Positions 6,413-46,487 of a stretch of DNA of 64,000 bases are shown one piece after another (position 1 is the stretch's first letter; each line of letters starts with the position of its first letter). The notes under the pieces are model-generated. The model did not search any database, was not told the DNA's origin, and saw nothing but the letters and a program-made list of their open reading frames with translations. Position numbers and translations under genes: made by a program. The stretch covers positions 256,026-320,025 of the forward strand of contig JAAOMT010000561.1 in the NCBI GenBank assembly GCA_016748015.1, in the 5' to 3' direction. The DNA is from Geosiphon pyriformis. Taxonomy: Eukaryota > Glomeromycota > Glomeromycetes > Archaeosporales > Geosiphonaceae.

Positions 6413-7832
6413 ATGGCACCCCGACAGCTCTTTCACGCTTTATCTCACGATTTCGAGAGCTTATTGAATAGTCTGAATTTTTCTGATATTAGGATTATTT
6501 TTGGCGAAGCGTCTAATACTAGAACTGTTTATGTTCATTCGCAAATTTTAGCGGCAAGATCCTCGTATTTTGCTATAGCACTCTCTGGTGATTGGGTTAA
6601 AAGAGAAAATAACACTATCGTCTTTTCTAAACCTAATATATCGCCAGATATTTTTGAGCTGATTCTTCGGTGAGTAATTTTGTTTGCTTAATAATTCTAT
6701 TCATGACTATTTAATTTATTTTATTTTATCTAGATACATTTATAGTGGTGAAATATCTCTTAATGAACACGGACCACTTACAATCTTAGAATTGTTTATT
6801 GCCGCTGACGAGCTTATTCTAGAAAAACTTATTGATCACCTTGAAGATTATTTAATTGAACACCATGTAAAAGAGTTGGAAGAAAATTTTGCCACCTTTC
6901 ATGAGACATCCTTCATCCATCATTCGTTCAAAAAGCTACAAAAGGTCTGCATCGAAATAGCTGTCAACAATTCATCCGCAGTCTTTAACTCTCAAAATTT
7001 TACTTCCCTTAATAGAAATGTCCTTTGCTCAATTTTATCCTGGGATGACCGAAACATGGAAGAAAGTGAAATATGGGAAAAGATTATAGAATGGGGAGTC
7101 GCAAAATTAAGCAATGACATTCATTGGAAAAAGTTCTTAATTGGACAGATGAAAACTTTGAAGCTTTTAAGGAATCTATTGAAGAACTTCTACCTTTAAT
7201 CCGATACTTTAACATCTCTTCAGTTGACTTTTATCATAAAGTAAAGCCATTTGCGAGAATTTTACCTGGAATCTTATATGAAGATCTTTTACAGCATTAT
7301 CTAGTACCGGGTAGTCATCAAGAGTCTATGGATGCTCAGCCATTACGTGTTTCCTTGCTTAAATATTGATTCAAAGCTTTTCCAATCGCATAATAAAAAA
7401 CAGCTTGATCATTGGATTCGAAAATACTCCTTTTAAAGATCAACTTGGAAATGATAACAAAGGATCAAAAATTACTGTAATCAAAGTTAAATGGACTGGT
7501 CAATTGATTGGCGGCTATAACCCAGAATCTTGGCATTCTCGTTGGGATTGGATAGATGGAAAAGAAAGTTTTATTTTTTCCCTTGGAGATGGCAAAGCTC
7601 AAAATGCCAAACTTAGCAATTTAGTTAGCAAAAATGGACCTTTTTGTCATAAAGAGCTCGGACCCCAATTTGGCTATGATAGTATTCGAACCTATAGTCA
7701 TAATTTTCAATCTATTCCATGCAGTTGTATAAAGGAAACAAATTATGAGCACGTTATAATGCCTGGGTCAGAAAATACAGCGGTAGAATTTTTTTTGATG
7801 AGTATGAAGTTTTTCAAATCATCAAAAATTAA
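6413..7832 (+). pseudogene. BTB-BACK-TLDc pseudogene, copy 2
   Basis: Exon 1 (6413-6669) is open and starts at the conserved MAPRQLF. The 64-nt intron (6670-6733, GTGAGT...CTAG) is identical to that of the copy at 23275. Exon 2 is open from 6734 to about 7123, where one A is lost compared with the intact gene (caattgg to cattgg) and the frame shifts. The shifted frame continues as LNWTDENFEAFKES until a TGA at 7367-7369. In the TLDc part, about 11 bases after 'ttggattc' and 66 bases near 7458 are missing compared with the copy at 23275; the second loss removes the LLLRGSRDGFSP core. A shortened T run near 7788 shifts the frame again before the final coding bases. Several independent lesions argue against sequencing error. 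A truncated N-terminal BTB-BACK product of about 240 residues could in principle still be made. Confidence 0.88.
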
Positions 7833-12025: not shown

Positions 12026-13778
12026 GTCTATCAGGTGTTCAACGAAAGTTTCTTCTTAACAATAGAAAAGGAATGTTTCTAACAAACCCCTTGCGGCACA
12101 CCAGATAATTGAAGGTCTATCAGGTGTTCAACAAAGTTGGCCGTGTTCTTAACGATAGAAGAGGAATGTTTTTAACAAACCCCTTGCGGCACGCCAGATG
12201 ATTGAAATCTATCGGGTGATCAGCGAAAGTTGGCCGTGGTCTTCTTATCGATTGAAGAGGAATGTTTACAACAAACCCCTTGCGGCACACCAGAAGATCG
12301 AAGATCTATCGGGTGATCAGCGAAAGTTGGCCGTGGTCTTCTTAACGATAGAAGAGGAATGTTTCTAACAAACCCCTTGCGGCACGCCAGATGATTGAAA
12401 TCTATCGGGTGATCAGCGAAAGTTGGCCGTGGTCTTCTTATCGATTGAAGAGGAATGTTTCTAACAAACCCCTTGCGGCACACCAGAAGATCGAAGATCT
12501 ATCGGGTGATCAGCGAAAGTTGGCCGCGGTCTTCTTAACGATAGAAGAGGAATGTTTTTAACAAACCCCTTGCGGCACGCCAGATGATTGAAATCTATCG
12601 GGTGATCAGCGAAAGTTGACCGTAGTCTTCTTATCGATTGAAGAGGAATGTTTCTAACAAACCCCTTGCGGCACACCAGAAGATCGAAGATCTATCGGGT
12701 GATCAGCGAAAGTTGGCCGTGGTCTTCTTAGCGATAGAAGAGGAATGTTTCTAACAAACCCCTTGCGGCACGCCAGATGATTGAAATCTATCGGGTGATC
12801 AGCGAAAGTTGACCGTAGTCTTCTTATCGATTGAAGAGGAATGTTTCTAACAAACCCCTTGCGGCACACCAGAAGATCGAAGATCTATCGGGTGATCAGC
12901 GAAAGTTGGCCGTGGTCTTCTTAGCGATAGAAGAGGAATGTTTCTAACAAACCCCTTGCGGCACGCCAGATGATTGAAATCTATCGGGTGATCAGCGAAA
13001 GTTGGCCGTGGTCTTCTTATCGATTGAAGAGGAATGTTTACAACAAACCCCTTGCGGCACACCAGAAGNNNNNNNNNNNNNNNNNNNNNNNNNNNNNNNN
13101 NNNNNNNNNNNNNNNNNNNNNNNNNNNNNNNNNNNNNNNNNNNNNNNNNNNNNNNNNNNNNNNNNNNNNNNNNNNNNNNNNNNNNNNNNNNNNNNNNNNN
13201 NNNNNNNNNNNNNNNNNNNNNNNNNNNNNNNNNNNNNNNNNNNNNNNNNNNNNNNNNNNNNNAACAAACCCCTTGCGGCACACCAGAAGATCGAAGATCT
13301 ATCGGGTGATCAGCGAAAGTTGGCCGTGGTCTTCTTAACGATAGAAGAGGAATGTTTCTAACAAACCCCTTGCGGCACGCCAGATGATTGAAATCTATCG
13401 GGTGATCAGCGAAAGTTGGCCGTGGTCTTCTTATCGATTGAAGAGGAATGTTTACAACAAACCCCTTGCGGCACACCAGAAGATCGAAGATCTATCGGGT
13501 GATCAGCGAAAGTTGGCCGTGGTCTTCTTAACGATAGAAGAGGAATGTTTCTAACAAACCCCTTGCGGCACACCAGATAATTGAAGGTCTATCAGGTGAT
13601 CAACGAAGTTGGCCGTGGTCTTCTTATCGATTGAAGAGGAATGTTTACAACAAACCCCTTGCGGCACACAGAAGATCGAAGATCTATCGGGTGTTCAACG
13701 AAGTTGGCCGTGGTCTTCTTAACGATAGAAGAGGAATGTTTCCAACAAATCTCTTACGGCACACCAGATGATTGAAGG
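12026..13778. repeat. Satellite array of alternating 96/97-bp units (193-bp dimers)
   Basis: Start points of 'aacaaaccccttgcgg' fall at 12081, 12174, 12270, 12367, 12463, 12560, 12656, 12753, 12849, 12946 and 13042, then again from 13263 onward. Two subtypes alternate: one reading 'acaccagaagatcgaagatc', the other 'acgccagatgattgaaatc'. Neighbouring dimers are nearly identical, while units at both ends are more divergent, the pattern left by unequal crossing-over. The array is much richer in G and C than its surroundings. Minus-strand frames appear open for 60-90 codons, but 193 is not a multiple of three, so the frame changes every dimer and no protein is supported. Each unit has a short hairpin around the TCTTC...GAAGA arms. 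Confidence 0.95.
13069..13262. other. Assembly gap (194 N) inside the satellite array
   Basis: A run of N replaces sequence within the array. The unit starts on either side are 221 bases apart (13042 to 13263), which is not a multiple of 96-97, so the gap length is not the true one and the real copy number is unknown. Confidence 1.
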
Positions 13779-23274: not shown

Positions 23275-24773
23275 ATGGCACCCCAACAACTATTTCACCC
23301 TTTATCTCACGATTTCGAGAGCTTATTGAATAGTCAGAATTTTTCTGATGTTAGAATTATTGTTGGCGAAGCGTCTAATACTAGAACTTTTCATGTTCAT
23401 TCTCAAATTTTAGCGGCAAGATCCTCGTATTTTGCTATAGCACTCTCTGGTGATTGGGTTAAAGAGAAAATAACACTATCGTCTTTTCTAAACCTAATAT
23501 ATCGCCAGATATTTTTGAGCTGATTCTTCGGTGAGTAATTTTGTTTGCTTAATAATTCTATTCATGACTATTTAATTTATTTTATTTTATCTAGATACAT
23601 TTATAGTGGTGAAATATCTCTTAATGAACACGGACCACTTACAATCTTAGAATTGTTTATTGCCGCTGACGAGCTTATTCTAGAAAAACTTATTGATCAC
23701 CTTGAAGATTATTTAATTGAACACCATGTAAAAGAGTTGGAAGAAAATTTTGCCACCTTTCATGAAACATCCTTCATCCATCATTCGTTCAAAAAGCTAC
23801 AAAAGTTCTGCATCGAAATAGCTGTCAACAATTCATCCGCAGTCTTTAACTCTCAAAATTTTACTTCCCTTAATAGAAATGTCCTTTGCTCAATTTTATC
23901 CTGGGATGACCGAAACATGGAAGAAAGTGAAATATGGGAAAAGATTATAGAATGGGGAGTCGCTAAATTAAGCAATGGGATTCAATTGAAAAAATTTCTT
24001 AATTGGACAGATGAAAACTTTGAAGCTTTTAAGGAATCTATTGAAGAACTTCTACCTTTAATCCGGTTCTTTAACATCTCTTCAGTTGACTTTTATTATA
24101 AAGTAAAGCTATTTGCGAGAATTTTACCTGGAACCTTATATGAAGATCTTTTACACCATTATCTAGTAACAGGGAGTCATCAAAAATCTGTTGACGCTCA
24201 TCCATTACGGTTTTCATGATCAAATTTTGATTCAAAGCTTCTCCAATCGCATAATATAAAGCAGCTTGATCATTGGATTCAAGGCAAAGACGAAAATACT
24301 CCTTTGGAAGATCAACTTGAAAATGAATTTAAATTACTACTTCGAGGCAGTCGAGACGGATTCTCACCAAATGATTTTCATCGGTTATGTGATAACAACG
24401 GAGCAAAAATTACTGTAATCAAAGTCAAAGGAACTGGTCAATTGATTGGCGGCTATGCCCCAAAATCTTGGCATTCTCGTGGCAATTGGATAGGTGGAGA
24501 GGAAAGTTTTATTTTTTCCTTTTGAGATGGCAAAGCTCAAAATGCTAAACTTAGCAAGCTTATTAGTGGACTTGGACTTTTTGGTTATAAAGAGTTCGGA
24601 CTCCAATTTGGCAGTTATAGTATTCGAACCTATAGTAATAATTTTCAATCTATTCCATGCAGTTGTATAAAGGAAACAAATTATGAGCACGTTATAATGC
24701 CAGGGTCAGAAAATACAGCGGTAGAATATTTTTTTTGATGAGTATGAAAGTTTTTCAAATTATCAAAAATTAA
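23275..24773 (+). pseudogene. BTB-BACK-TLDc pseudogene, copy 3
   Basis: Starts at the conserved MAPQQLF. One A is lost in the AAAA run near 23461 (VKRENN becomes a shifted frame), so exon 1 ends prematurely. The 64-nt intron (23532-23595, by comparison with the other copies) is intact and identical to that of copy 2. Exon 2 is open from 23596 through the whole BACK region to a TGA at 24217-24219. The frame then continues unchanged with LLQSHNIKQLDHWIQ and LLLRGSRDGFSPNDF to a second TGA at 24523-24525 (GGA changed to TGA in FSLGDG), and the last codons are shifted in a T run at 24728. The mutations are mostly single-base, so death is recent. Exon 2 is almost identical to that of copy 2, but this copy keeps the TLDc core that copy 2 lost. 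Confidence 0.88.
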
Positions 24774-25099: not shown

Positions 25100-28000
25100 A
25101 AACGAAAGCCATATTGGGTTTAGGCTAAAATATAAAACACTGAATACTCAGGACGTATTATATACTTAAATTTCAGCCATTCAATGTTTTTGTTAAAATA
25201 CAAGAATCTCAAAGTAAAGGCTGTTAGTACTCAGTAAATAAACATCAAATAATTGGTAATAATTGTTTGAATTTCAATTTATAAGTTACTAAGCAATTTA
25301 AAAAGTACAATATGTAGAAATTACTTAAAGATTTAATACTTAATCTAAACAACAAAAGATTTAGTTAAAACCAAATAGACTCTTAATCGAATAACTTTGT
25401 TAGATTTAAAATAAAATAAATAAATAATTGTTTGTAAAGCTTTTTAAGATTTTTTATCCTATTGCAGTTTGTAAGATCGTTTTCCTAAAACTTTATACAA
25501 TTAATTATTCTATTAAATTATGGGTATAAGAATAATAAGATAATAATGAGAAACATGTTATTCCAAAATTTTAACTAAATTTTGAAACCTCTTACTAATG
25601 AAAATTTGACCAAAAATTAAAAAAATTTTATAACTTATAATTATTTAACATTAATTATACAATATTTTGAATTATGCAATATTGAAAAGTTTATAAAATA
25701 TAAATAGTTTGCCAAAATTTTCATAAAAATAATACTATTTAAAATAAATTAAAAAAAGCTTTTTTATTCAAAGAATATATTCTTAAGCCAAAAAGAAAAT
25801 ATTTTATTAAAATTATTAATTAAGTAAATAATGTGAATTTTACTTTAAAAAACTAGCAATATTGCTAAATTAAAAGAATTCAAAGTGATTAAATTGTTTT
25901 CAAAAGTGTTATAATATTCAAAAATAAAAACAATGTATCTTTAAATAATTTATTACAATTTTTAAAACATTTTATTAAAATAGAATTTAATAATGCTTAT
26001 GATTGTAATAAAACAGCTTGTTATTAAAAATTAGAACTCTTTAAAATTTTTCAATATTTTATTGTTAATACAAAAAAGTTAATAAAAATATTTTTATTTG
26101 TATAATATATAAATAATAACACGTAAATACAATTACACTTTTTTAAAATTGATTGAAAAATATAAAATTTCAACCAAAATATTTTATTATTTTTTAATAA
26201 TATTAGATTTTATATATTTGCAAAAATATTTTTTATTAATATATGATGTTGGAATTATTTATCTAAAATAAGTTTTTTAATTTAAAAATATATAAATCGA
26301 TTAATTAAAATGTTAATAAAAAAATTGTTTGTCATAAACAAAGTTAATATTTATATTAACATTATTGATGTAATTAGTTTTTTTTGTATAAACTTAAATC
26401 TAATTCAATTAGTACAGTTTAAAATAAAACAAATTTTTTTTACATTGGTAAATATTTTTTTATTCGATAATAATAATATAAGAATTTAATAAAGAAAATA
26501 CAAATAGTATTAAAAGCTATTTCGAAATTAATTTCATTTTAATAAAAAGATTATTAAAGTTGTTATTACTACAAAAAAACTTTAAAAGTTGAAAAGTTAA
26601 AAATATTGTAAATACAGCAAAAAGTAATTCAAATAATAATTTTAATATTGTAATTACATATATAAAATAAATTTCCAAATTTTGAAAATAAATTACATAC
26701 ACAATTATTTTTTTATTTTAATAATATCTATATTTTATATTTGTTGATTTAATTATATTTATTAATTTTTTTAATTATTGTTTTTTTTATAAATTTTTTA
26801 TTTAATTTATATAATAATAATAATAATAATAATAATTAGTAATAATAACAACATTTTATTAATTTAAAATTACTAATTTTAATTATTGCCCGAATTATTA
26901 TATATATTAAAAAGCTATAAACTAAAAATGTATTTAATTAAAAGTATTGTTAACTTTAGATTAATATAAGAAATTATAAATATATACATATTTAAATTAA
27001 ATTAAATTATATACTTTTACATATAAATAGCTATTTAATAATATAGTTATAGATTATTAACTAAAAAAATTAAATTAATAATATTAAAAATTAATAGTTT
27101 TCAATTTAAAAAATATATTTATAATAAATAAATTTTATTTTAATTATTTTTAATTTTATTATTATTAATTACTAAATACAATTTAATTATTACTTATTAT
27201 AATATAATTATAAAAAACATTAAAATAAATATAACTTATGTTTTTTTTTATACAATTAGCTACTTAACTAATCAAAACAATACTATATAGCTATAGTATT
27301 AAAAATACCAAAAAATTCTTAAAAAATAGATATAAATTAAACCAAAATTTACATAATATTTTTTAATAAAATAATTAACATAATCTAAATAATTAAAGCC
27401 AAATACAACAGAGCAACTAATATTAAATTATAACTGATTTATTATTAATTAACAAATTTTTTTATAAAAAGCTTTAAACTTAAAATTTAATAACTCTATT
27501 ATCAATTTATAATAAAGCCCTAAACCAAATTTATTATTTATAAGTTAATTATAGTAGCATTTTTAAAACTCAAAAAACCAATTTTTAAAAACCAATTCTT
27601 AATTATAGTTAAATAAATACAATTAACAAAAATAATATTATACAATAATCGCAAAATTAAGAAAAATACAAACTATAAATCAAAAATAATAATATATTTA
27701 TTAACAAAAATGGCTTTTATAATAATATTAAAAACACACAAAAAAATATAATTAAAATTTTTATACGATTTATAACAAATACAAATTATACTTAGATATT
27801 TAGAATTAAAAAGTTTTTTGTTTATAATAATATATAATAAGTTTTTATAATATATATAGAAAGACTAATAATAATATAACTTGAAAAATCTATATATATG
27901 TATTTATTAAAATATTATATTAAGCTGGTTTTTAAAGTATTTAAATTTTTTATTAATAATATATTAATAAATTTTATTACATAATTAAATTTTTAAACTA

Positions 28001-31000
28001 CAAAACTAATTGAATTAAACAAATTTTTAATAAAATAATATGTATTTTAAAAACTATTTTGTTATTTGTTAAATAATTTTTTTTTAATATTAGTAAACAG
28101 CATAAAATCTAAATTTAAAGTATTAATTACAAATATATTAGCATAATTATTATTTATATTGTCTGAATAATTTTTTATAAATGTATTATTATTTTACTTA
28201 ACAACAATTATAAAAATCAAAACTTAACAAATATTGTTTTAATTTATATATATTAAAAAATACCTAATTATTTAAATTAAAAACCATTAAGTTTTAAACA
28301 AAAATATTATTCAGAACCAAAACAATAATTTATAACTTAGCCAAAATTAATAACATTAATTTATAAATACTTATTCTAATATTTAAATTTAAATCTGAAA
28401 AATATGTAAATGTTTTATTAATAATATTAAAAAATTTTAATTTTTTAACAAAGTCATCTGTAAAAATTAAAATCAGATTTAAACAAATATTATAAAAATT
28501 TGTTTTAACTATTCTAAAGTTGTTAAAATTAGACAAATACTAATAATATAAAAAATGATACAAGTAAATTATTGTTAATAAAACTATTTTTTTAATAAAA
28601 TTTACAATAATATTAAGTTATAACATAATTAAACTTTTAAAATTAAGTTTTTTTAATAATAATAAAATTTTAAATTGAAACAAAAATCATAAAAATTTAA
28701 TAAATAGTTACAAAAACAATAACTAATTACTTAAAAAACTAGATTATATTATTAAAAATTGAACTTTTATTTTTAAAATAAAAAAAATTTAAAAAATTAT
28801 TAATAAAAATATACTATATTTAAAAAAAATATAAATTATATTAACCAAAAATTTGTTTAACAAATTTACAGATAACATAATCAAAAATATTATGCTTATT
28901 ATTATGTTTTTAACTTAAATTTGGTTAAAAGTTTTTAGATTATTTAATAAAAAATAATATACAATTTTATTTAAAAAATTTTTAAATAGATTAATTTTAA
29001 TTTTTAGTTTTTTTTTAATAATATATTTTATTTTTTACACATATTTTTTGACATAAAACTAAATTAAGTCTTATAGCTACAGAACTACCAAAACTAAATA
29101 CAAAAATTGTTTATTAAAAACAGTTTTTTTTAAAACTAAATTAGTAAAGAATTTTATATTTAAGTATACTTTTTTCAAATTAGACTTAAATAAATTATAA
29201 GTTAACAAAAAAATTTTAAAATATTTATGTATTTTACTTTTTTTAACAAAAAAATAAATAAGTCACTAATCTTTAAAAAAACTTTTTTAATTTATTAATT
29301 AATAAAAATAGCTATAATTTTCTTATTGTTAATTAAAATATTGTTAATCTAAAAAATTTATTTGTAATATTCAAAATATACTAAATAGTAATCTAATTAT
29401 TTTTAATTCAAATAATATTGTTAATAAATATATTAATTGCTAAATAAGATATTAATATTAATTTTGTAGTTACATAAACTTTTATGTCTTTAATTTTATA
29501 CAAAAAAAAATTATTGAAAATTTTTTAAAGTAATAATAAAAAAATCTTATTTAATTTAAATTATTATGTATTTTATAATTATTTATTAATCCAAAATTTG
29601 TAATTATCTAATTAATTTTATTACAATAAATACTTTTAAAAAAATTTAAAAAAACTTTTTATACATTTAACTTAAGTAAACTATTTTTTATATAAGATTA
29701 ATTTATTAAGTTATAAGTTTTATATATATTTTGCAGAATTAATTATAGCTTTCAATTTTTTTTAAAATATTTTTTATAATAGAACTTACAATAAAAACAA
29801 AAAACTAAGCTAAAATGTTTTTTAATACAAAAAAATTAGTTTTGTAAAAAATTTTTTATTTATAAAACTTAAAATTATAAATATTCAACCTTTTTTTACA
29901 ACTTTAAAACTGTTTTATATAATACACCAAATATAAAAAATTCAAAAGTAATTTTAAAACAAACTTATTACAATGTTTTTATAATTTATTAATAATATTA
30001 AATTAATAACTTTTTTATTTAACAAATTAACAATTATTTTAAACAATTTTTTATATTTAATTACATTTATTATTTCAAAAAAAATTTATTATCAACATAA
30101 TTTAAAAGCAAATACTAATAATATTAAAGATTAAAAATTATGTTTAATAATATAACTTTTATTATAAATAAAGCTTTTTATATACTTAATATAACAGATT
30201 TAATTCTAGATTTTTTAGTTTTTAAAAATTTATAAAGCTTAAATATATAATAAAACTTCTTTATTTTAAATATAACAAGCTTAATATTATTAAAATTGAA
30301 TTTGTATAAATTAAATTTTGAATATTTATAGTCTTAATATTATTAAAAAACAAATATTAACTTAACAACTTTATAAATTCATTGAAAATTCTAATTTTAA
30401 TGTATTAATAATCTTTAAAATCAAACATTCTAATTTAAAGACCTAAATAATATCTTAATCATATTATTATTAAAATTATTAAACCATAATTTAATAAATA
30501 TCTTATTAATTAAAAAATACATAACTTTTTAAATCTCTATTTTTTCTAAAATTATTAAACTTTTTAAAAAAATTAATTATTATTAATAAAAAAAATCTAT
30601 AAAATTAATTTATTTAATATTATTTGCATATTTAAAATTGTATTTTTATTGGTTTTTGTTTATATATTTTATAAAAAAATTAATTATATATTTAATAGAC
30701 TATTTAAACTTGTTAAAACAAAAATAGTTTAATAATTAATATTAAAAAATCCATTTATATTTAACATATAACAACTAATTATAACATTAAAAATATTTAT
30801 TAGAATTATTTTTATTAAAATTACTATTTAAAATCATAAAATATTCTTTAATTATTAAAAGTTAATTATATTAATTTAAATCAATTGTTTTTTTATAAAA
30901 ATATTAGCATCAAGTCTTAAAATTAAAATAAAAAACTTATTTTTAAACAACAATTTAATTAATAAAAGCCAATTAACTATTTTAAAAAATTTTATACATA

Positions 31001-33000
31001 CACTTAACCAAATTATTACTTATAATAATTGGAATTTAAATAACTAAAAGTTAGATTAAAAGTGAAAATTTTTATACTATTAAAATTGTTTTTAATTTAA
31101 AACTTAATACAATCTTTTAATTTAGTTTTAATAATAATAAATATCAAGTTATTTATATTTTTATGCTATTTTATAAGGTTATTTTGTTTTACAACATTGT
31201 ATATTTTTTTAATATTATATGTAATAATTTTTTAGATTAAATTAATTATTAAAAAAATTATTACTATTATACAATATATTTAACTTAAAAAATATTATTT
31301 TAACAAAATTTATAAGCTTAATTATTTTGGTTTTTAAGCTATTTAGCTTAAAAATGAAAACATTAAAAGTATTAATACTTTAAAATAACAAATTATCAGA
31401 TTTACCAAAAAAATTAACAAGAGAAAAAAATAAAAATTATCTATTATTATATTCAAGCCAAAATCGAAGCAAAAAAAAACAGCAGCAAAAATTAAAAAAA
31501 ATTAACAAAAATCTGGTTTACTTATTAATCCAAAAATTTTATTTAAAAAAAACTTTAAATTTTTTTTACAATACTTATTTTAATTTTCAAAAAAGAAATA
31601 ACTAATAATAAGAGAGATTTAATATTTATAAATAAATCAAACAAAAATTTAATAAAAATATTACTTGTAATTTGCATTAAAGTTATGTCATTAAATAAAA
31701 TAGAACAAGCAATTTTAACTTGTTTTTTAATATATATATATATTAATTATTGTTTATTTAATACAATAATATCTTTATTAATATAACTAAAAACTTTTTT
31801 ATTAATATTATATACAGATAAAATATGTTTATTATTTATATATAATATAATATAATATAGTTAAATTAATTTAACACAAATTCACATTTTTAAAAACTGA
31901 AATAATACAAAAAATAGCTTTTTATAAATTTTTATTTTTAAATCTAATAACTATACATTTAACATAATCATAAAATATTTAGTTTTAATTTATTATATAA
32001 ATTTTTATCATAAAATATTACAAAATTAGAAAAAATATATTTATTAATAGAATATAAAACAGTATTTTATAATTGTTTTTGAATATTTATATTTGTTTGT
32101 TAATATTAGTTTTTATTATATATATTAAATTTTTACTTATAAATACAATTATTTGAAGTTACTAACTTAATAATTTTATTATTTTTAAATTCTACTATAA
32201 TTTTTTCTTATAAACTAATAAGTTATAACTTAATTAATATTATTTTATCAAACTTAGCAAAAGTTAATTTATAATTGATTTAAAAAAATCTACTGAAATT
32301 TTCTTAACAAATACTTTTTAATTTATATGCTTGTTTACTTTTTTCAAATCAATATTTACAATAAACTTTATACTTATTACCAAATATTTAGTTTTTATCT
32401 AAGCTTAATTTAGAAGTAAAAATTAATTAAATAATCTTATAAAATTTTGAAAGAATAAAGGCTCTTTCAAAATTATTTACTTAGTGAAAAAATTTTTAAC
32501 AAATTTTAACTTATTTTTCAAATTTTTTTTAACAACTATTAAAATAATAATATCCAAAATAAAAGATTTCACAAAATTAAATACTCTTTTTTTTAGAGTA
32601 AAACCACAATAAAAAACTTCAAATTTTTGAATTTAGAAGAAAAAAACTCAAATATTTTATTATTATTTAATACACCAAAATCAGATTGTTTTTCAGATTT
32701 TTCCAACTTGTGAAACCAAGTGTAAAGTTTTTTAAAAAGTTATTTTGTTTATTAGCTTAAAAACAATCTTATACTTATTATAAAAAAAACTGGTTTCTTT
32801 CACATAAAAATTCTTTATATTATCAACTTTAGACTTATTACTAACATTACTAATTTTATTTTTTATATTACTTTTTAAGATTTTAGTTTAGAATTCTTAC
32901 CAAATTTAATAATCTTTATGACCAATGGGTTAATAAAAGAATTTACTATTAATATCTTAGCAGTAAGTTTTTAGTTTTCTTATCTGTATTTTCAAATATA
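25100..33000. other. AT desert 2, no genes seen
   Basis: About 8 kb of extremely AT-rich DNA with no supported coding sequence; visible frames are short and made of Asn, Lys, Ile, Phe and Leu. An AAT microsatellite lies at 26811-26836. The plus strand is poor in G compared with C across much of 27.2-31 kb (hand count in 28261-28380: about 15 C, 3 G), opposite to desert 1. Confidence 0.7.
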
Positions 33001-35469: not shown

Positions 35470-36749
35470 TATAACGAATTTTAATTTATGAGGTAACGAA
35501 AGTTTCAGAATCTAGTAAATGTTAATCATAGATGGTTGCTGGATTTTCTCACACGACCAGGTGGTCGGAATGTAAATATAGAAACTGGATAAACATCTCT
35601 AAACATAAAAATATTTCTTCGATTTTTCATTGGATAAACAGGTTTTTAAAGTTACCCTTTTATTATTTTGAAAAAAAATTTCTCAATTAACAAACGGTTC
35701 ATCAATTCTAGACATGATTCCTAATTTTCTTTGAATCAAAAGAATTGGCATGGTATCGGTGACATTTATTATATAGCTTTATAGTTTTCCTAATGATTAA
35801 AAATTATTTACTTTTTAAAATATTTCCCTTAAAGTGAAAGTATTAAAATTCTTTTTTTATTATTGTATAGCTATCATTGAATAACCCCCCCTCAATTATG
35901 AAATTATTTATGATTGATTGATTGACATGTTGTTAGTTTCTGTAACCATCAACTCAATGTCAATGATTAAATATTTTCTGGCAAATAATGATCGATGAAT
36001 TTTCTATTGTTGTCCCGTGGCGGGGTGGCGCTTTTTTTTAAACACCCACACAACATAGACAAGTTGACAACAGAAAAAAAACAAATTCAAGCATCACATT
36101 TAACTTTTTCTCTCCCACCTTCTTCCTTCTTTTTTTTCCTTCAATCCCTGCCGCTATTTCTACTGTTTCTCTAGAAGTTTTCTCAACTTTCTCTTTTCTC
36201 TCCTTTTTTTTTCTTTCATCAGATTAAATAGATCATTCTAAAAATCATCACTGACAACTTTTAACCAACCAAACCCAAATATTTTTTCCAGTGCACTGCC
36301 ACTAGTAACAAGTAAAAACCAACTCTCACACAAAAACGCGATAACAACACTGCTGCCCTGCCGTCTCAACCCCCGGCCCCTCCTTTATAAACACACCTAA
36401 ACAATAGTGGATTAGGTGTTGCTCTGATTTTTATTTTTAATGTCTTACGTCATTTCACAACTTTGTATCTAAAAAAATAAAAAATATTGAAATACTAGAG
36501 TTGACAAGTCTTTTTTGACCAAAAAAAAATTAACCAAAAAATTCCAGTCTTCATAAAAAAAAAACATACACACCCACCTTTTTTTTTTGCTATATTATTA
36601 TCGTTTCCTGACGTGTTACTACTAGTTATATGAGCTTTTATCCGTTTCAAACTTAACGTGAAGAAAAAAGCAAAACAAAATAATAGGATATCACCTTTAG
36701 AAGACAACGTCACTTCAACAAATAGAATTTATCTTCATTGGACACTGTA
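35470..36749 (+). promoter_or_regulatory. Probable promoter and 5' UTR of the 36750 gene
   Basis: A TATAAA lies at 36386-36391, about 360 bases before the start codon, after a CT-rich, CA-containing zone (36100-36220) and a GC-richer patch (ccccggcccc at 36371-36380) that stand out from AT-rich surroundings. The 5' end of the transcript is not determined; a leader of about 300 bases is inferred. Confidence 0.35.
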
Positions 36750-38310
36750 ATGCCGGCAACTCGTAAGCACCTTCATGTGGCAAAGCCAAGACGTCGACAA
36801 CGCTCTGTAAGTTTAACAACAAGAGCTTCACGTTGCGGCGTCAAAAATTATGTAAACGTGTTAAAGTCACTACACCCACAAGTTGAAGAATTCTTTCCAG
36901 TTACCAAAGAATACATGCAAGAATATATTGAGGTGAAACGAAAACAAAATAGCATTAAGGCAAATTCGTTAGACCAATACTTTCAACATATCGAAAGCTA
37001 TAACATGGCTCTGGGTCATGGTTGGGACGCTGAGGTTTTCGAACCAATGATGCGTCAAGTATTGGAAAATCTTGAACAAGTCGAGGAAAAGACTCGCGTT
37101 GACCGAAAATTGGTGACTGGTGACGAAACTTCTATGGATGTGGCAATGTCGATTGGAAGTGAACACGACAGTCAATTGAATGATGTTGTAGGGGAGACTG
37201 TTGTCGATACCAACAATAATGTCAGCAGTGGTGGATATGGTAAGCAGGGCTTCTGTTCTTGTTAATTGAAATGGGTTCCTGTGTTTCATGCATGGCTTAT
37301 GCAGATCGTCCTAAATATAACGGAAGATCTCATTGTTAATCTTTTCCATTTTAATTATCTTTTGAAAAGCCCCTTCAGTTGCGCTGGTATGCTTTGATTC
37401 AACTCATGTCCCATCAACTAAACATGAGAACATATCTCAAGTATCGCTGGTAGGCATCGATCCAGATAATTTTACACTCGCGCTTCGACATATATATGAC
37501 GCCGTGAAGAATACGCGTTTTCCGAAACGTTGGGGAGATATTGACATCTCTACCATATATTATCGAAATGACGCGTGGAGTGAATCATCACCTTACCCAT
37601 TGACCGACGAAAATTCCTTTAAAATGTTTTGGACGGCATACCTGAATTCATCAACAGGTGGAGAGATTCAATTAGTTGTCTATAATAGGCGAAGTACGTG
37701 TAGGTTTTTTAGAATGGAAAATTTTTAAGTTTTAATTTTTAGTTTCCCTTACCCATTTATCATCTTTGAAATTTAATAGGCCCAAAAGCACCACTTGTAA
37801 TAGGTACCGATATTAATTCTCAATCAACATCGATACAAATCGCTCCTTTAACCCCACGAAAAAGTCCACCTCGTTTGGCGAATCCTCCTACCACAACTAT
37901 TGAAATGATCACAGGTTTGTTAACATGTATCAATGAAACCGATTTAATTAAACTAATTAAAATAATTGTAATAATTCAAAGATTTCATCAAAAACCTTCC
38001 AATTATGATCACAGAAAGTCCGGTTTTATCACCAACATTTCAACAAGTAAAAGCGGTCACGATTCGATCACCCAGTAAAGTATACAAAGCTAATATAGCT
38101 GTTACCGATAGCACTACTTTTGATTCTCTTTTAAAATTTGCAATCGGGAAACGGCCACCTGCAGGTAAACAATTTGTTCTACAAAGCGCGGACGGTGAAT
38201 TGGAGTATATGCCAGAAGATCCAGTGCGAAAAGTTATTTTTGGGACCGGTCATGCTGAGGTGATTGTTAGGATGGAGGACGTGAAAGATATCGATTTTTC
38301 TCAGTTTTAA
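36750..38310 (+). CDS. Four-exon protein of unknown function with recombinase-like N-terminal helices
   Basis: Exons 36750-37239, 37379-37693, 37780-37914 and 38015-38310 (411 aa). All introns are GT-AG (139, 86 and 100 nt) and every junction is phase 1 and keeps the frame. The start is the first ATG (MPATRKHLHVAKPRRRQ); an upstream TTG frame is ignored. Seen: a basic N-terminus (PRRRQR), then a helical segment (about residues 50-115) with KANSLDQYFQHIESYN and GHGWDAEVFEP. This order (S-L-x-Q-Y, I-x-x-Y, G-x-x-W) resembles the SAM-like core-binding domain of tyrosine recombinases, but no catalytic R...HxxR...Y half follows. The middle is a globular region (ALRHIYDAVKNTRFPKRWGD) and a Ser/Pro linker; the last ~80 residues (VYKANIAVTDSTTFDSLLKF) look like a beta-grasp or ubiquitin-like fold. 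Function unknown; a domesticated transposon protein is possible. Confidence 0.8.
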
Positions 38311-39753: not shown

Positions 39754-40260
39754 TCATGTTAACGGATGGATTGCTACTATTTCCTGCAATGCCCGGAGAA
39801 AAATTCCCCGAGCGCCATTTTCATTAGTCTTACAATTTATATATTGCAGATCCTCACATGTTTTGGATGTTTCCACACCAACTTACAAGTCTTGGACGTA
39901 TAAGCTTCATTTTGGATAATAACATGAATTCCTAATTCCTCTGCTTTGGCTATTAAACGCTGTCGAAACCAATAATGTCTAGCCAAGCGTTTTTTGGACT
40001 GATTTCTATGTAATATTTCTTGTTTTTTGATTCACTATGTTATATACCTCGAACAGCAAAATGATGACAACATCGAATTCATGGGTAAAAAAAGCAATAG
40101 CTTTTCTGTGAATTTTATTTTGCAAGTGTTTAATTTTTCGTTACATATATGCTATCGCTTTATCAAGCCTTTTAGCTTTTTTCCTTTTTCCATTTAGAAG
40201 CTGATAATACCATTTTCATTTCTTCTTTTTTGCTTCATCTCACTACTGTATTAAAAACAA
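39754..40260 (-). mobile_element. TnpB/Fanzor-like RNA-guided nuclease relic 1 (C-terminal half)
   Basis: Minus-strand translation, top to bottom of coordinates reversed: KRLDKAIAYM-stop-RKIKHLQNKIHRKAIAFF, HEFDVVIILLFEV, (frameshift) LARHYWFRQRLIAKAEELG, NEAYTSKTC, then NENGARGIFLRALQE and a stop at 39754-39756. These are the hallmarks of TnpB and its eukaryotic Fanzor relatives: the helix before RuvC, the (W/R)HYxFRQRL and KAEExG stretch, the E-A-Y-T-S-K-T-C zinc-ribbon entry with the RuvC-II Glu, and the D/E-x-NGARGIFLRA C-terminus (RuvC-III). The DRD-like residues before NGA are damaged (TNENGA) and the second half of the zinc ribbon is lost. At least two stops and several frameshifts mean no active protein. 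N-terminal half not found. Confidence 0.85.
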
Positions 40261-40261
40261 A

Positions 40262-43200
40262 TCTGATCAATCCTATACATTATTTTAAGAGTTGTTTTTG
40301 AAAATAATTTGGATATATTTTAATTAATAAATTATAATTTAGAATATTTTCTGTTTTCTGGTATTTGTTATAAGTTGTTATTAATTTTTGGTTTTTGTGT
40401 TTTCAATTGTATTTTGTTTATTAATTTGCATTCTACTGTTGATGGCAAGAATATTTTTGGCCAATTTTATATTTACTTAAAATTAATTTGTTAATAAAAA
40501 CCATAAATTTTGCAAAATTAAAAAACAAGACATTTTAAAAAAAAATTGGAACAACAGTGTTAATTATAGTAACCATAATTTTTAAGACTATTTTGCAACT
40601 TGTTTATTTAAAATTTTTTTTATTTAGCAATAATAATAATAATAATAATAGTAATAATAATAGAATTAAAATTTTAGAAACTAGCTTAAGAAAAAAGAAA
40701 ATAAAAATTTACTTTTTTAACAAAAAAAAAGATATTTTTAAGATAATTTATTATTTAAGATTTAAATTGATGTTAAATACTATTTATAAGAGTTTATAAC
40801 AAACTTATTTGTTTGGAATTAAATACTTATACAAAAGCAAAGTTTTCAAGTTTGTATATTATAATTTATACAAATATTAGTAATCTTTTTAGATTATTAA
40901 AACAAAATTATTTTTAAATAATATTAGAATGTTTATTAAAAAAGTTTTACTTTAATAGTTAAAATACAAGGATAATAAAAAAATAAGATAGTTCAATTTT
41001 TTGCACTAAAAAAATTTATTAAAAAGAATTAAAAAATGCAAAAAGCAAAATTTTTATTGCATACTATAATTCCATTTTTTTATGTTAATTTAAAAAAGTT
41101 TTTTATAACTAGATAATAACTAATAATATTAGTTATTATAATATAAAATAAGCAAAATAAAAATTTTATAAATATTTGAAAAAATTAATTAAAAAGTGCA
41201 TTTATTGCTATATAATTTATTATTTAAAATAATTAAAAAATATTTTGAGCTAAGTAAAATATAACAAAAAAAAATTCTTTATTTTTTATATAATTATTTT
41301 GGTTTAAAAAAAATTGAAACTTCTTTAACATTAATTGTTTCATTTTTTCTAAGTAAATATAAATTTAATATATAGTATTTATGTTATTATAATCTTAAAT
41401 ATTCTGAATAAATTGTAATAAAAAGATAATTAAAATTTATATTTTAAAACTATTTTTGAATTTTTTCAAATATTTGTCTTAGTAACATAATTTGGTTTTT
41501 GTTTATCCAAATATTAATTATATAATTCTAAATTTTTATATAATATTTAAAAATTTTAAAAGTTTTTACCTAAAAAAATTCATAATTAACTTTTTTTTCT
41601 CTTTAGTAATTATTAATAAATTTAAAATTTGGTTTAAAATATAAATATTCTATATTGTAAAAAATTCGAAAATATATTATTTATATTTTTTGAAACTTTG
41701 GTATTATTTTTAAAATTAATTAAAATTTTAAGAATAAAAATATTATGTTATTATTTTTGTTAATGATAATTTTTTTTGGTTCGGTAAAATTATTATTGTT
41801 ATTGTCAATAGTTTCAATAGACTTATAATAAACATTGTATTCAAGTACTATATTATTATTGTAGTTATAAATAACATTTTAATAAAAAAAATACAATAAA
41901 TATGAATTTGCTTACTATTTTATCTAATTTTGTTGTTATTTCTATTTAATTACTGCAACAAAATTTCAAAAATTTCAGGTATCTGTTTGATAAGAATTTA
42001 TGATATAATTAATACTAGTTTTTTATTTAATTCAGCTTTCTTTGTAATCTGAACATTTTTGGTTTTTGCAAATTGTATTTTTTTATTAACAAAAAAATTA
42101 AAATGCAATTTAGAAAAAAAATTCGCTATAAAATTTCTGATTTAATATTAATAACTAATTTTTTGTAAAATTATTTGTTATTTTTTTAATAAAATAAAAT
42201 AAAAACTCTTTTTTTTATTGATTCTAAATCCTAAAAAAGCAAAAAAAAGCTTAAGCATATTTTATTACTTTCTTTCTATCTAATTTTTTACAAATTTTTT
42301 TGTTACATGTATAACCAAAAAAAAAGATTTGTTTTAATGTTAAGAAAAATATAATAGATTATAAGTTTAACAAATTTAATAAAAAAACCAAAAAATCTAT
42401 GTTAATATATCTATATTAATAATATTTGTTAGTAATTCAAATATAAAAGTAAATAAATTTGTTATAATTTCTAAAAAGTTTGTATTTTAAGATAATAAAA
42501 TAAGTAGCTTTTAGTAAGAAATTAAGTATTGAAAATATAAAAAATATTATATTAAAAAAATTAGTTTTATTATGAATAAAAATAAGAACAGTATAAATAA
42601 TTTGAATAATATAATACTTGTTTTAAGTTTTTTAAAAAAATAATGAAATTTGAATTTGTAAAATTAAGATTTGTCAAAAAAAATTTTATTAAGTGAATAA
42701 TTTAAATAAATTTTTGCTTTTTTATAATTTTAAAAAATTATTTAATTTATGTTTACATTTGAATTAAGCTTAAACAAAATTAAAAAATTTACTATAGAAC
42801 TTAATATATATATAAATATATACATAAATCAAAAAGTAATTGTAAAAAATATTTTGTTAATATTTTTAAATTGATATTAAAATTAGTCTTTACATATATT
42901 AATATTTTTTTTAATTTTGTTTTAAATATAAGCTATTGATAACTTTTTTCAAGCAAAATTGTATATAAAAAATATACCAATAAAAATAAGTTTAAAACAC
43001 TTATTAACAGCAAAACTATTGATAATTTAAAGCTAAAAAATTAAAAAAAAACATTAAAAAATTAAAAAAAATAATAATGAATTTAATAGAAAATGTAAAC
43101 AATCTTAATTTATCTTTAAAATTTTATAAATTACTGTTTTAATTAACTTAAAAGATTGTTATTTATAATATATATAATTAAAAAAATTCTTTTAAACAAG

Positions 43201-44690
43201 AAAATATTATTAGATAATATAAACAATTTATTATTTATTATTACTGAAAAATCAAATTATGTTTTAAAAAAATCAAAATATTTATTTTTAGTTTAAATTT
43301 TAGATAATATTATCATTAAATATATATACAAAGTTTTTAAAATATTAAATTTACTTTTGTTAATTTATCTGTCATTTAAAAATAAGCTTTTGGTTATGTT
43401 TCAGAATTTTTATACAAAAGTCTTTTTAAATATGAAATTAAAACAACTAATAATATATGTACTATAATTGTTAAGATAATAAACATAAATTTATTTATAG
43501 TATTAAATAATAATTTTAAAGAATTAGTTATTCTATTATAAGTTTAACAGCATACACAGTTTAAAATATAAATAAATAATTTAATAGCTTTTCGCAATAA
43601 TAAAATTAATACTAATATTAGTATTTAATAATATTTAAAAAAACAACTAAATTATTAGTAACAATATTATGCTATTGATTTTTGCAAATTATATATAACT
43701 GTATTAATATTTAAATACCTTCTAGTAACAAGCAATATTATTATTATTTAATTTATTATTATTATTTAGTTTTATATATGATTTTAGAAAAATTAATGAT
43801 AATAAATCAAATTAAATAAATGGATTAAATCAAATATATATATTATTTTTTTATCACATTTTATTTAGCATAGTTCCAATCGTTATATATGTACATAAAA
43901 CATATACATGTCTTAAAACAAATACAGTTTATTATGTTATAATATTTTATTTTTACCAGTTCAAATAGATTGGCAAATTTTAATTAATATATTTTTTTTA
44001 AATTTTAATTTTAACAATATCTCTTTTGAGAATTTTGATCTAACATTATTTACTTTAGAATTAAAAAAACAATATGTATATTGATCATAAAACTTGTAAA
44101 TTATTTTAATAATTTAAAAAAATTCACAAAGTACAAAAAATACTAAAATTTTAATACAATTAATAATTTCTAAAAATAAAGAAATTAAAAATCAAATTAT
44201 AGTTTATATAAATATTTAAAAAATTGAAAACACATTTTGAATTCATTGAACAATAATGTTTTATTAAAAAAAATTATATATAAAAAATGTTTTCTTAAGA
44301 AAAAAATTTATGCTAATTTATATTAACCCAAAAACAAGATATAAAAATAAGCCAACTCACTTTTCTACCTTTTTTTTTAACCTTTTTGTATTTTTTAAAA
44401 TGTTTTACAATATATATTTATTAATCATTGTTTTTAAATTCATTGATTTACTAACTTTATTATCTATGTGTATCAAAGTTTTAATTAAAAAGTGCTTAGT
44501 TTTTAATGTTTAAGAAATTAGGTAGATTTGTTTTGGATATAAAAATTATTATAGCAATTTTCAAGGTGGCTTGAAATGGTAAATTGAGGATTTTATGAGA
44601 GGTTTTTGGTTTTCGTGTTTTTGTGTTTATTTTAAAAGGCGGTTTGAGTGGTAAACACTAATAATTAACATTTTAAATTTTTCTGATAGG
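40262..44690. other. AT desert 3 between the two Fanzor-like relics
   Basis: Very AT-rich, no supported gene. An AAT microsatellite lies at 40628-40660, inside an Asn-rich chance frame (40557-40799). Parts of 41.7-42.5 kb have more G than C on the plus strand. Short frames at 44310-44513 are low complexity. Confidence 0.6.
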
Positions 44691-44999
44691 ATGTCAAACA
44701 ATCTCTTTAATAGCTTCTGAACAAAAGAGAAAACAAAGGTTGAAAGAGTGGCAAGCAATATTACAATATGATTTATCTTTCTTTCCAGTTACGTATGTGA
44801 TTGTATCAAAATGTTTCATTATCATTATGGTATTGTTTTTTTTTTCGTATTTTCACACTTTTCATTACATCAACAAAAACAATTTTTAGTCCAATTTTTA
44901 ATTTTTTTTAGAAGAAAAATAAATGCATGCTATGACATTTCGATTTCGAAACTAAACCCAGAAACATTAAGCGGTCCTACCTACACAAACCCAAACAAA

Positions 45000-45568
45000 C
45001 AGATTCGGCCATGGCTCTTATTAATCCTGTATTCTCCCTCTAAAAGGTGCGTAAATAGCCTCTGGTAACAACGGACGAATTTTTCGCCTTTCAAATATAT
45101 GAATGACCTTCTTTCGAAAAAAGCCCAACTGGCTGTTTCTCATTCAAAGCATAAGAAACGCAGGGTCCAGCAACTGGAAAAATTAGTCTCTACCACACGA
45201 CGAAAGATTCTGCATCTGCAGAATGAAATCCACAGGAAAGCGATCGTGTTTTCACTCGTTGTTTGAGGTGTCAAACATGACAAATTGTAGGTGAGAAAAG
45301 AATGTCTGGTAGGTACACTAATGTTTTCGTAAATATCTGATAGTCAAGGCCGAGGAGTTAAGAGTCGGTCTTGTCATCCAAAATGAGGTTTATGCATCTA
45401 AGGCTTGTGACTGGTTTAAATAAGATAAAAATCATTTGAAGGTCAGAAGTGTAAAACTGACAAAATTGCGGGGCTGTAATGGACAGGGATGAAATGGTCT
45501 TCTTCTTAGGTCATGGACATACTCATGAAGACTTTGATCAAATTCTAAATTTTTTGATAATACATTAG
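45000..45568 (+). mobile_element. TnpB/Fanzor-like RNA-guided nuclease relic 2
   Basis: Plus-strand translation with frame changes: GNNGRIFRLSN (about 45061-45095), KKAQLAVSHSKHKKRRVQQL (45117-45176), RRKILHLQNEIHRKAI (45199-45246), FEVSNM (about 45260), KAEELRVGLVIQNEVY (about 45346-45393), ASKACDWF, then CGAVMDRDEMVFFLG (about 45470-45515) and a stop at 45566-45568. The order and motifs match TnpB/Fanzor: G-x-I-x-R-L after RuvC-I, basic helical region, H-x-K, F-E-x-S, K-A-E-E-x-G, N-E-x-Y-x-S-K-x-C, and C-G-x-V-M-D-R-D (RuvC-III Asp). A candidate RuvC-I site at about 45022-45040 reads ALINP where ALDPG is expected. The frame is broken at least four times. Clearly the same family as relic 1, but on the other strand. 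Sequence from 44690 to 45000 may hold the N-terminal part but is not recognisable. Confidence 0.82.
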
Positions 45569-45823: not shown

Positions 45824-46105
45824 TCAATTATTGAAGTACCGATTCAAAACACACATTTTTGGGCTTGCCAGGTCTAATAGGGGTTTAAGTTCCAGTCGTT
45901 TGAAATTGAGTGCTGAGCTGATATCATTGAGAAGTTCATAGGTTGGAAATCGAGAAAGGAGGTGTCGCTTTTGTCGCCGAAATGCTGTTTTGTTATCAGA
46001 GATATGCGTATTTTGGATGGATATATCTTTGGCGTTGATCTTTCCTTGCTTAAGTCAATGACGTTAGGTTGACGAGCATTACTAAGCAACTGGGCAGTAT
46101 TTTTT
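45824..46105 (-). pseudogene. Frameshifted coding relic of unknown family
   Basis: Minus strand from 46105: QLLSNARQPNVIDLSK, then after a shift near 46045 GKINAKDISIQNTHISDNKT, AFRRQKRHLLSRFPTYELLN and DISSALNFKRLELKPLLDLA, ending at a TGA at 45824-45826. The second frame is open for about 76 codons with natural-looking composition (charged helices), better than the overlapping 71-codon Met-started frame at 45874-46089. No family was recognised. It may be a C-terminal exon of a cellular gene or another transposon gene. Confidence 0.4.
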
Positions 46106-46487
46106 ATTTATAAGCTTATTCAGCAAACATTTTCAGTGTCAAGAATCCTATCCTTTTTTTAAAAACAGCCAAAATAATAAATTAGGGCCTGAACCAAATT
46201 ACCGTCTATAACATTTTGCAAACTCCAAGTTTCTAACACAAAGAAAATTTTGCGCTTCAAAACTGTATTTTATCATTATGAGGAATGATTTAAATATTTA
46301 TCAAAAAAGGTAATAAAACTTTTCAAAGTTAAAAAGATATATTTGTGTGTGTATAATCCTTTTAAGCTACTTCTTTTTCATTACGAATGAATAGATGTAT
46401 AATAGGAAATTACATCTGGACAAATTATAAAATCATATAAAAATTAAATTAATAATTATCGGAGCAGCTCCTATTACTTAAAACCAA

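Follow-up and report, generated by a model that had tools for sequence, protein, structure and literature searches.

A 64,000-nucleotide stretch of the Geosiphon pyriformis genome (contig JAAOMT010000561.1, positions 256,026 to 320,025; hereafter the window) contains two decayed coding remnants in opposite orientation, lying on either side of an AT desert, and these raise the questions of what kind of element left them there and whether any intact relative survives in the genome. A first-pass annotation, made from the letters alone, had assigned both remnants to RNA-guided nucleases of the TnpB/Fanzor type. The present analysis suggests, with high confidence, that they are fossils of a family of IS607-type transposons that carried a Fanzor2 gene and is now dead. 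The results described below directly support the membership of the relics in this family, the order of its genes, its sharp right end and the decay of the examined copies.

Two relics and their genome-wide family

The motifs and the opposite orientation of the two relics are as the first-pass annotation had read them: relic 1, on the minus strand, retains NEAYTSKTC and ENGARGIFLR, and relic 2, on the plus strand, retains NEVYASKAC and MDRD (Table 1). The Pfam model PF07282 (Cas12f1-like TNB; the nuclease domain of TnpB/Cas12f) matches relic 1 at 39840-40031 with an E-value of 1.6e-8 and 35 bits, above the cut-off of 26.3, and the guided_TnpB model of NCBIfam matches it with 5.4e-7 and 29.2 bits, which is under its cut-off of 100. 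Identification by profile therefore held for relic 1, while relic 2 is reached through the family only. The second cysteine after NEAYTSKTC is gone from relic 1, where the zinc ribbon is degraded, and the DPG site is undetected in both relics, whose core matches begin at residue 164 or later. Relic 1 has its 3' terminus at 39763, where the minus strand reads CAATCCATCCG, and keeps the right end of the family there. DNA similarity of relic 1 to its relatives (88% identity over 374 bp with L031) reaches about 40840 and, patchily, about 41425, and relic 1 is therefore longer than first delimited and enters the AT desert. Because the similarity extends to 40840, we infer that part of the desert is drifted old element sequence.

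Relic 2 is 67.8% identical over 413 bp (45097-45481) to L074, which is among its nearest relatives together with L038, L049, L051 and L052. The earlier claim that the two relics share sequence is supported, as a relic 1 query matches relic 2 at 45307-45444 with an E-value of 1.3e-5; by their similarities, however, they are placed in different subgroups of one genome-wide family. Reversed-sequence controls of both relics gave no DNA matches.

The extent of the family was estimated in the 124.7-Mb assembly, where the counts for large families are lower bounds. PF07282 gave at least 123 matches, 68 of which were above its cut-off; a 64-aa query from relic 1 found 103 places at E≤0.01, relic 1 counted; a 170-residue piece of L002 found at least 156 places, with 150 of the 273 candidates scored; and a 65-residue piece of relic 2 (45069-45263) found 65, relic 2 counted. 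The match sets of the PF07282, relic 1 and L002 queries overlap. PF01385 (OrfB_IS605), which was positive in eight of 14 control genomes, had no match in the genome at E≤1. The copies are spread over many contigs, the largest of 2.7 Mb, and 76 loci, representing only part of the places in the genome, were fetched and labelled L001-L076. The notion that an element of such a kind was formerly active in this lineage is thus upheld by a genome-wide decayed family, and can be sharpened to an IS607-type element with Fanzor2. A second Fanzor family (L001, L003, L004 and L016) has a different right end and is likewise decayed; its member L001 matches PF07282 at 2.5e-20, and the similarity between L003 and L004 extends about 300 bases beyond the stop. 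Separately, the contig ends L071:32-2089 and L072:1-2058, which include a recombinase-Fanzor relic, are 100% identical over 2058 bases and probably represent an assembly duplicate or allelic contigs.

The recombinase gene and the nuclease core

An open frame at the 5' side of the family was considered as a part of the Fanzor gene and rejected, as the reading of L071 identified it as an IS607 serine recombinase (TnpA). NF033518, the IS607 transposase model of NCBIfam, matched 53 places in the genome at E≤0.1, with a best value of 5.4e-21 and none of the 53 exceeding the curated threshold of 110 bits. On single loci the IS607 transposase model gave 3e-5 for L071, 1.1e-8 for L073 and 1.6e-15 for L076, and the TnpA of L074 matches from model position 14 with an E-value of 8.8e-6. 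A genome search with the Pfam resolvase model returned three places, all over the cut-off, and one of them, in L071, precedes a Fanzor relic by 0.7 kb. The recombinase relic at L074:653-1228 may retain an N-terminal DNA-binding part that is absent from most matches.

The order of the two genes was counted against the full genome match lists of PF07282 and relic 1. A Fanzor match on the same strand lies within 3 kb downstream of 26 of the 53 TnpA matches (24 of 49 loci), whereas none lies upstream and two are on the opposite strand; with TnpA positions shifted by 10-60 kb, the mean count was 0.2 and the maximum 3.

A majority read built from 13 copies restores a core of 332 aa as an open frame, in which IDPG, PPFE, NEAYTSKTCSQC, a second CxxC and DRDE occur in this order. 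The DPG at RuvC-I is present in the majority core and in several single copies. The canonical RuvC-II place, as judged by eye, reads PPFE, and the alternative RuvC-II glutamate is found in NEAYTSKTCSQC, six residues ahead of the first CxxC; the two CxxC of the zinc ribbon and the RuvC-III aspartate (DRDE in the majority core, MDRD in relic 2) are also present. The DPG and the glutamate six residues ahead of the zinc ribbon are given as the Fanzor signature in the relevant part of PMC10711439. These core signatures, combined with the recombinase upstream, lead to the assignment to Fanzor2 in an IS607-type element. The place of the glutamate and the end repeats described below rest partly on reading by eye, and our confidence has been trimmed for that reason. 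The best match among solved structures, obtained with a profile of 21 fragments, was the TnpB-like protein L79 (PDB 9b0l; E=1.1e-19), which we take to be a mimivirus Fanzor2, and the match covers the last 120 residues of L79 alone. Of the 24 matches in the PDB at E≤1, none is named Fanzor1, though some are named just Transposase.

That the element instead carried a Fanzor1, or was a canonical TnpB element of the IS200/IS605 type, seems highly improbable. In its favor, families of Mucor, Rhizopus, Phycomyces, Allomyces and Spizellomyces stand under Fanzor1 in a table of the 2013 survey (PMC3627910). Fanzor1 proteins such as SpuFz1 of Spizellomyces are distant relatives by the order of RuvC and zinc-ribbon motifs. 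An IS607 recombinase upstream, the combination of DPG with the alternative glutamate in the core, and the want of clear terminal inverted repeats are, however, at odds with such an element, and Fanzor1 is described as absent from IS607 transposons in the corresponding passage of Yoon et al. (PMC10711439), occurring in other transposon types as far as the pertinent parts of that paper and of the 2013 survey go (PMC3627910, PMC10711439).

Element ends and a candidate guide RNA

The first-pass annotation had proposed that an alignment of the ends of intact copies would define the termini and any conserved 3' guide-RNA segment. The right end was scanned in 59 loci, and 36 copies matched: 14 end exactly with TCCG, 12 end at the same place with changes, and 10 stop short of the border. 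The flanks differ immediately past that border, and the right end is therefore sharp; about 70 conserved bases, by our own count, lie between the fanzor stop and the border. Few 5' ends survive, and the left end C(C/T)GATGA was seen in six copies (L005, L012, L020, L055, L064 and L066), which start with CCG in four cases and CTG in two.

Local alignment of 58 oriented copies revealed no clear terminal inverted repeats among the best 30 of the 58. In the terminal inverted repeat test, L011 gave an inverted match scoring 53, where its best shuffle scored 26, and L022 a weaker one (39, best shuffle 29). L011 also contains, at 942-1080, an inverted copy of the element 3' end upstream of its Fanzor relic. 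No common target duplication was found in the flanks by eye, with few 5' ends available, and no empty site was found from which an insertion dinucleotide could be read. A direct motif shared by the majority strings of the two ends was equaled in 3 of 2000 shuffles and an inverted motif in none of 2000, and the score of a direct repeat internal to the 5' end was likewise reached by 0 of 2000. According to the pertinent section of PMC6188088, the ends of IS607 elements have short direct repeats and an imperfect inverted repeat, often overlapping the genes, and insertion occurs without target duplications.

Two helices drawn by eye in the right end are paired in 85.2% of 283 cells, compared with 64.5% or less when slid, and 7 of the 13 pairs are changed on both sides among the 31 rows; one of these helices overlaps the end repeats. 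Judged by its position and by what is known of the family, the right end would likely have given a guide RNA.

The living element was probably about 2 kb long and comprised a 5' end, tnpA, an overlapping fanzor2 and the conserved non-coding right end past the fanzor stop. By the most likely mechanism, drawn from what is known of the named families, TnpA would have cut the ends and joined them at a short core common to both, inserting the element without target duplications. Fanzor2, guided by an RNA from the right end and its adjoining flank, would have cleaved matching sites beside a short motif, such that copies were kept or restored at donor sites. The family spread across the genome and later died.

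Several results weigh against the assignment to an IS607-type Fanzor2 element or against parts of it. Taken alone, the two open pieces of relic 2 have no significant profile match in Pfam or NCBIfam, the best Pfam matches being unrelated (DUF7869, E=0.017; VPS51, E=0.19) and the best NCBIfam value being 0.06. The Pfam resolvase model falls short of its cut-off on individual pieces (E=0.042 and 0.0096) and has no match on L074 and L076; 51 of the 53 TnpA matches start at IS607 model position 48 or later, and many are fragments. The majority frame of the nuclease is open only across the C-terminal 332 aa and is broken farther upstream. At the left, the listed ends partly disagree, L071 starting at AAGATTTGC, and no target-adjacent motif is readable from the few 5' ends available; the inverted end motif comes from majority strings typed from alignments and is scarcely visible in single copies. 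RNAalifold predicts no pairs for the same 31 right ends, and six single right ends fold weakly (z from -2.58 to 0.14). One development of the IS607/Fanzor2 reading, which we regard as rather unlikely, is a fungal lineage in which fanzor gained a spliceosomal intron, the recombinase lost its N-terminal DNA-binding domain, and the ends came to be recognized in another way, perhaps by the Fanzor-RNA complex, before the lineage reached more than 100 copies and died.

Decay, surroundings and place among known elements

Intact relatives elsewhere in the genome, which the first-pass annotation had envisaged as programmable nucleases, did not come to light: a 300-residue core free of interruptions was found in 0 of 71 sequences (70 loci and the window), and open frames across the 123 PF07282 matches reach 183 aa at most. 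As for six later loci, L071, L074 and L076 are interrupted, L072 is cut by the contig end, and L073 and L075 have no core beyond chance; five listed places with frames of more than 200 residues (L061, L062, L063, L064 and L071) are all interrupted. Given these stops and frame breaks, the examined copies should yield no nuclease. In columns that are well conserved, transitions from G/C to A/T outnumber the reverse about two to one. Repeat-induced point mutation was rejected as the cause of this AT-directed decay, since its CpA preference is absent. It seems very unlikely that some copies have been domesticated or still produce a short protein or a guide RNA. Such a role would agree with the open frames of 150-183 aa that some copies still have across the nuclease domain and with the many copies that have a sharply bounded right end, but it is difficult to reconcile with the lack of an uninterrupted core in any of the 71 sequences examined and with changes in the copies that are scattered and AT-biased.

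One subgroup has a 92-base insert bounded by GT and AG, past which the frame of the next exon is kept by eye; 13 copies pass the test for it, compared with 4 when the insert is shuffled and the thresholds are the same, which softly suggests that it is intron-like. The insert bears on the origin of the contigs, which would carry bacterial rather than eukaryotic IS607 elements if the assembly were contaminated. The uninterrupted relatives found are indeed bacterial, including three cyanobacterial tnpA-tnpB pairs, and relatives were scanned for in prokaryotic and viral collections only. Contamination is nevertheless extremely improbable in view of decayed, AT-biased copies on numerous contigs that reach 2.7 Mb, of the intron-like insert as a soft argument, and of the genes around the relics: the window holds BACK and TLDc genes, along with one peptide transporter, and TLDc occurs at no fewer than 134 places of the genome at E≤1e-6 and in none of the 14 control genomes. 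TLDc expansions of that size fit arbuscular mycorrhizal fungi.

A third relic, which lies outside the interval first annotated, at 45862-46135, consists of a recombinase fragment (75.8% identical over 120 bp to L071 and 74.0% over 131 bp to L073) and a 5' end region (Table 1).

Table 1 Relic features in the window, with strand and basis of assignment
Feature	Position	Strand	Basis
Relic 1, very probable decayed IS607/Fanzor2 copy	39763..40840	minus	Letters, 3' terminus, DNA similarity to L002, L011, L022 and L031
Relic 1, Fanzor core residues 167-324 by protein-level match, 6 stops	39787..40239	minus	Alignment to family core
Relic 1, ENGARGIFLR, C-terminal RuvC-III end, in another frame than NEAYTSKTC	39793..39822	minus	Translation
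Relic 1, NEAYTSKTC, alternative RuvC-II glutamate and first zinc-ribbon cysteine	39885..39911	minus	Translation, alignment
Relic 1, possible 5' part lying within the AT desert	40962..41425	minus	Patchy similarity to L031 and L022; weak, AT-rich
Relic 2, very probable decayed Fanzor2 copy of another subgroup than relic 1	44898..45494	plus	DNA similarity to L074 and others
Relic 2, Fanzor core residues 164-216	45093..45251	plus	Alignment to family core
Relic 2, core residues 229-285 with NEVYASKAC site, 3 stops	45262..45408	plus	Core alignment, letters
Relic 2, core residues 297-313 with MDRD site, 2 stops	45443..45493	plus	Core alignment, translation
Relic 3, fragment of IS607-type serine recombinase (TnpA), reads FPTYELLNDISSALNFKRLELKPLLDLAS	45862..45991	minus	DNA similarity, translation
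Relic 3, 5' end region of an element of this kind	46075..46135	minus	Similarity to the L012 5' end (78.8% over 66 bp, E=2.9e-8)

Elsewhere in the window, near-identical fragments of BACK-domain genes at 6678-7199 and 23539-24219 likely reflect a recent duplication. An open frame with repeated peptide-like units at 12847-13491 includes a run of unknown letters, the long stretch 26001-32000 has a G+C content of about 11% and a negative GC skew, and a 179-residue open frame at 36726-37265 has no Pfam match at E≤0.001. Rfam found no match in the window.

Among known systems, the closest in organization are the Fanzor2-bearing IS607-type elements known from eukaryotes and giant viruses, which share with the present family the DPG, the alternative glutamate, the RD motif, a serine recombinase upstream, and the lack of clear terminal inverted repeats or target duplications. 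The family differs from them in its many decayed copies within one genome, in the intron-like insert of one subgroup, and in its TnpA matches, most of which leave the N-terminal part of the model for IS607 uncovered. Fanzor2 is placed in IS607-type elements only in the relevant portion of Bao and Jurka (2013, PMC3627910), while a passage of Yoon et al. (2023, PMC10711439) reports that some Fanzor2s were later found in other transposons. The 2013 table lists one Fanzor2 family each in four budding yeasts, these being families and not copy numbers (PMC3627910), and Fanzor2 is broadly reported in fungi in the corresponding section of Saito et al. (PMC10432273). A high copy number by itself was already known, since Fanzor elements can reach hundreds of copies according to the pertinent text of Yoon et al. 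(PMC10711439). Literature searches found no paper joining Fanzor with Glomeromycot, IS607 with Rhizophagus, or IS607 with arbuscular mycorrhizal, and those for TnpB with arbuscular mycorrhizal fungi returned none on the subject, judged by titles.

Outside eukaryotes, the family profile finds 32 bacterial loci, among which the cyanobacterial L079, L081 and L082 are pro-Fanzor IS607 elements, whose identity to the core is about 45% over the part that runs from DPG to the end. They have the same tnpA-tnpB order, by motif a serine recombinase ahead of a DPG/EAYTSKTC protein, but are bacterial, have uninterrupted frames, and encode a TnpA with a longer N-terminal part before the catalytic motif. 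L79, in spite of being the best structural match, is comparable across its C-terminal 120 residues only, and 31 pattern matches in viral contigs included no relatives.

By the sequence evidence presented here, the family adds a member to the known IS607/Fanzor2 elements, with no living nuclease found among the copies examined, and these copies offer no ready nuclease. They form instead a graveyard of one family that is large enough to define its right end, gene order, intron-like insert and subgroups by comparison, and thereby provide material for asking whether Fanzor2 aided the multiplication of IS607 elements in eukaryotes, and why the elements died.

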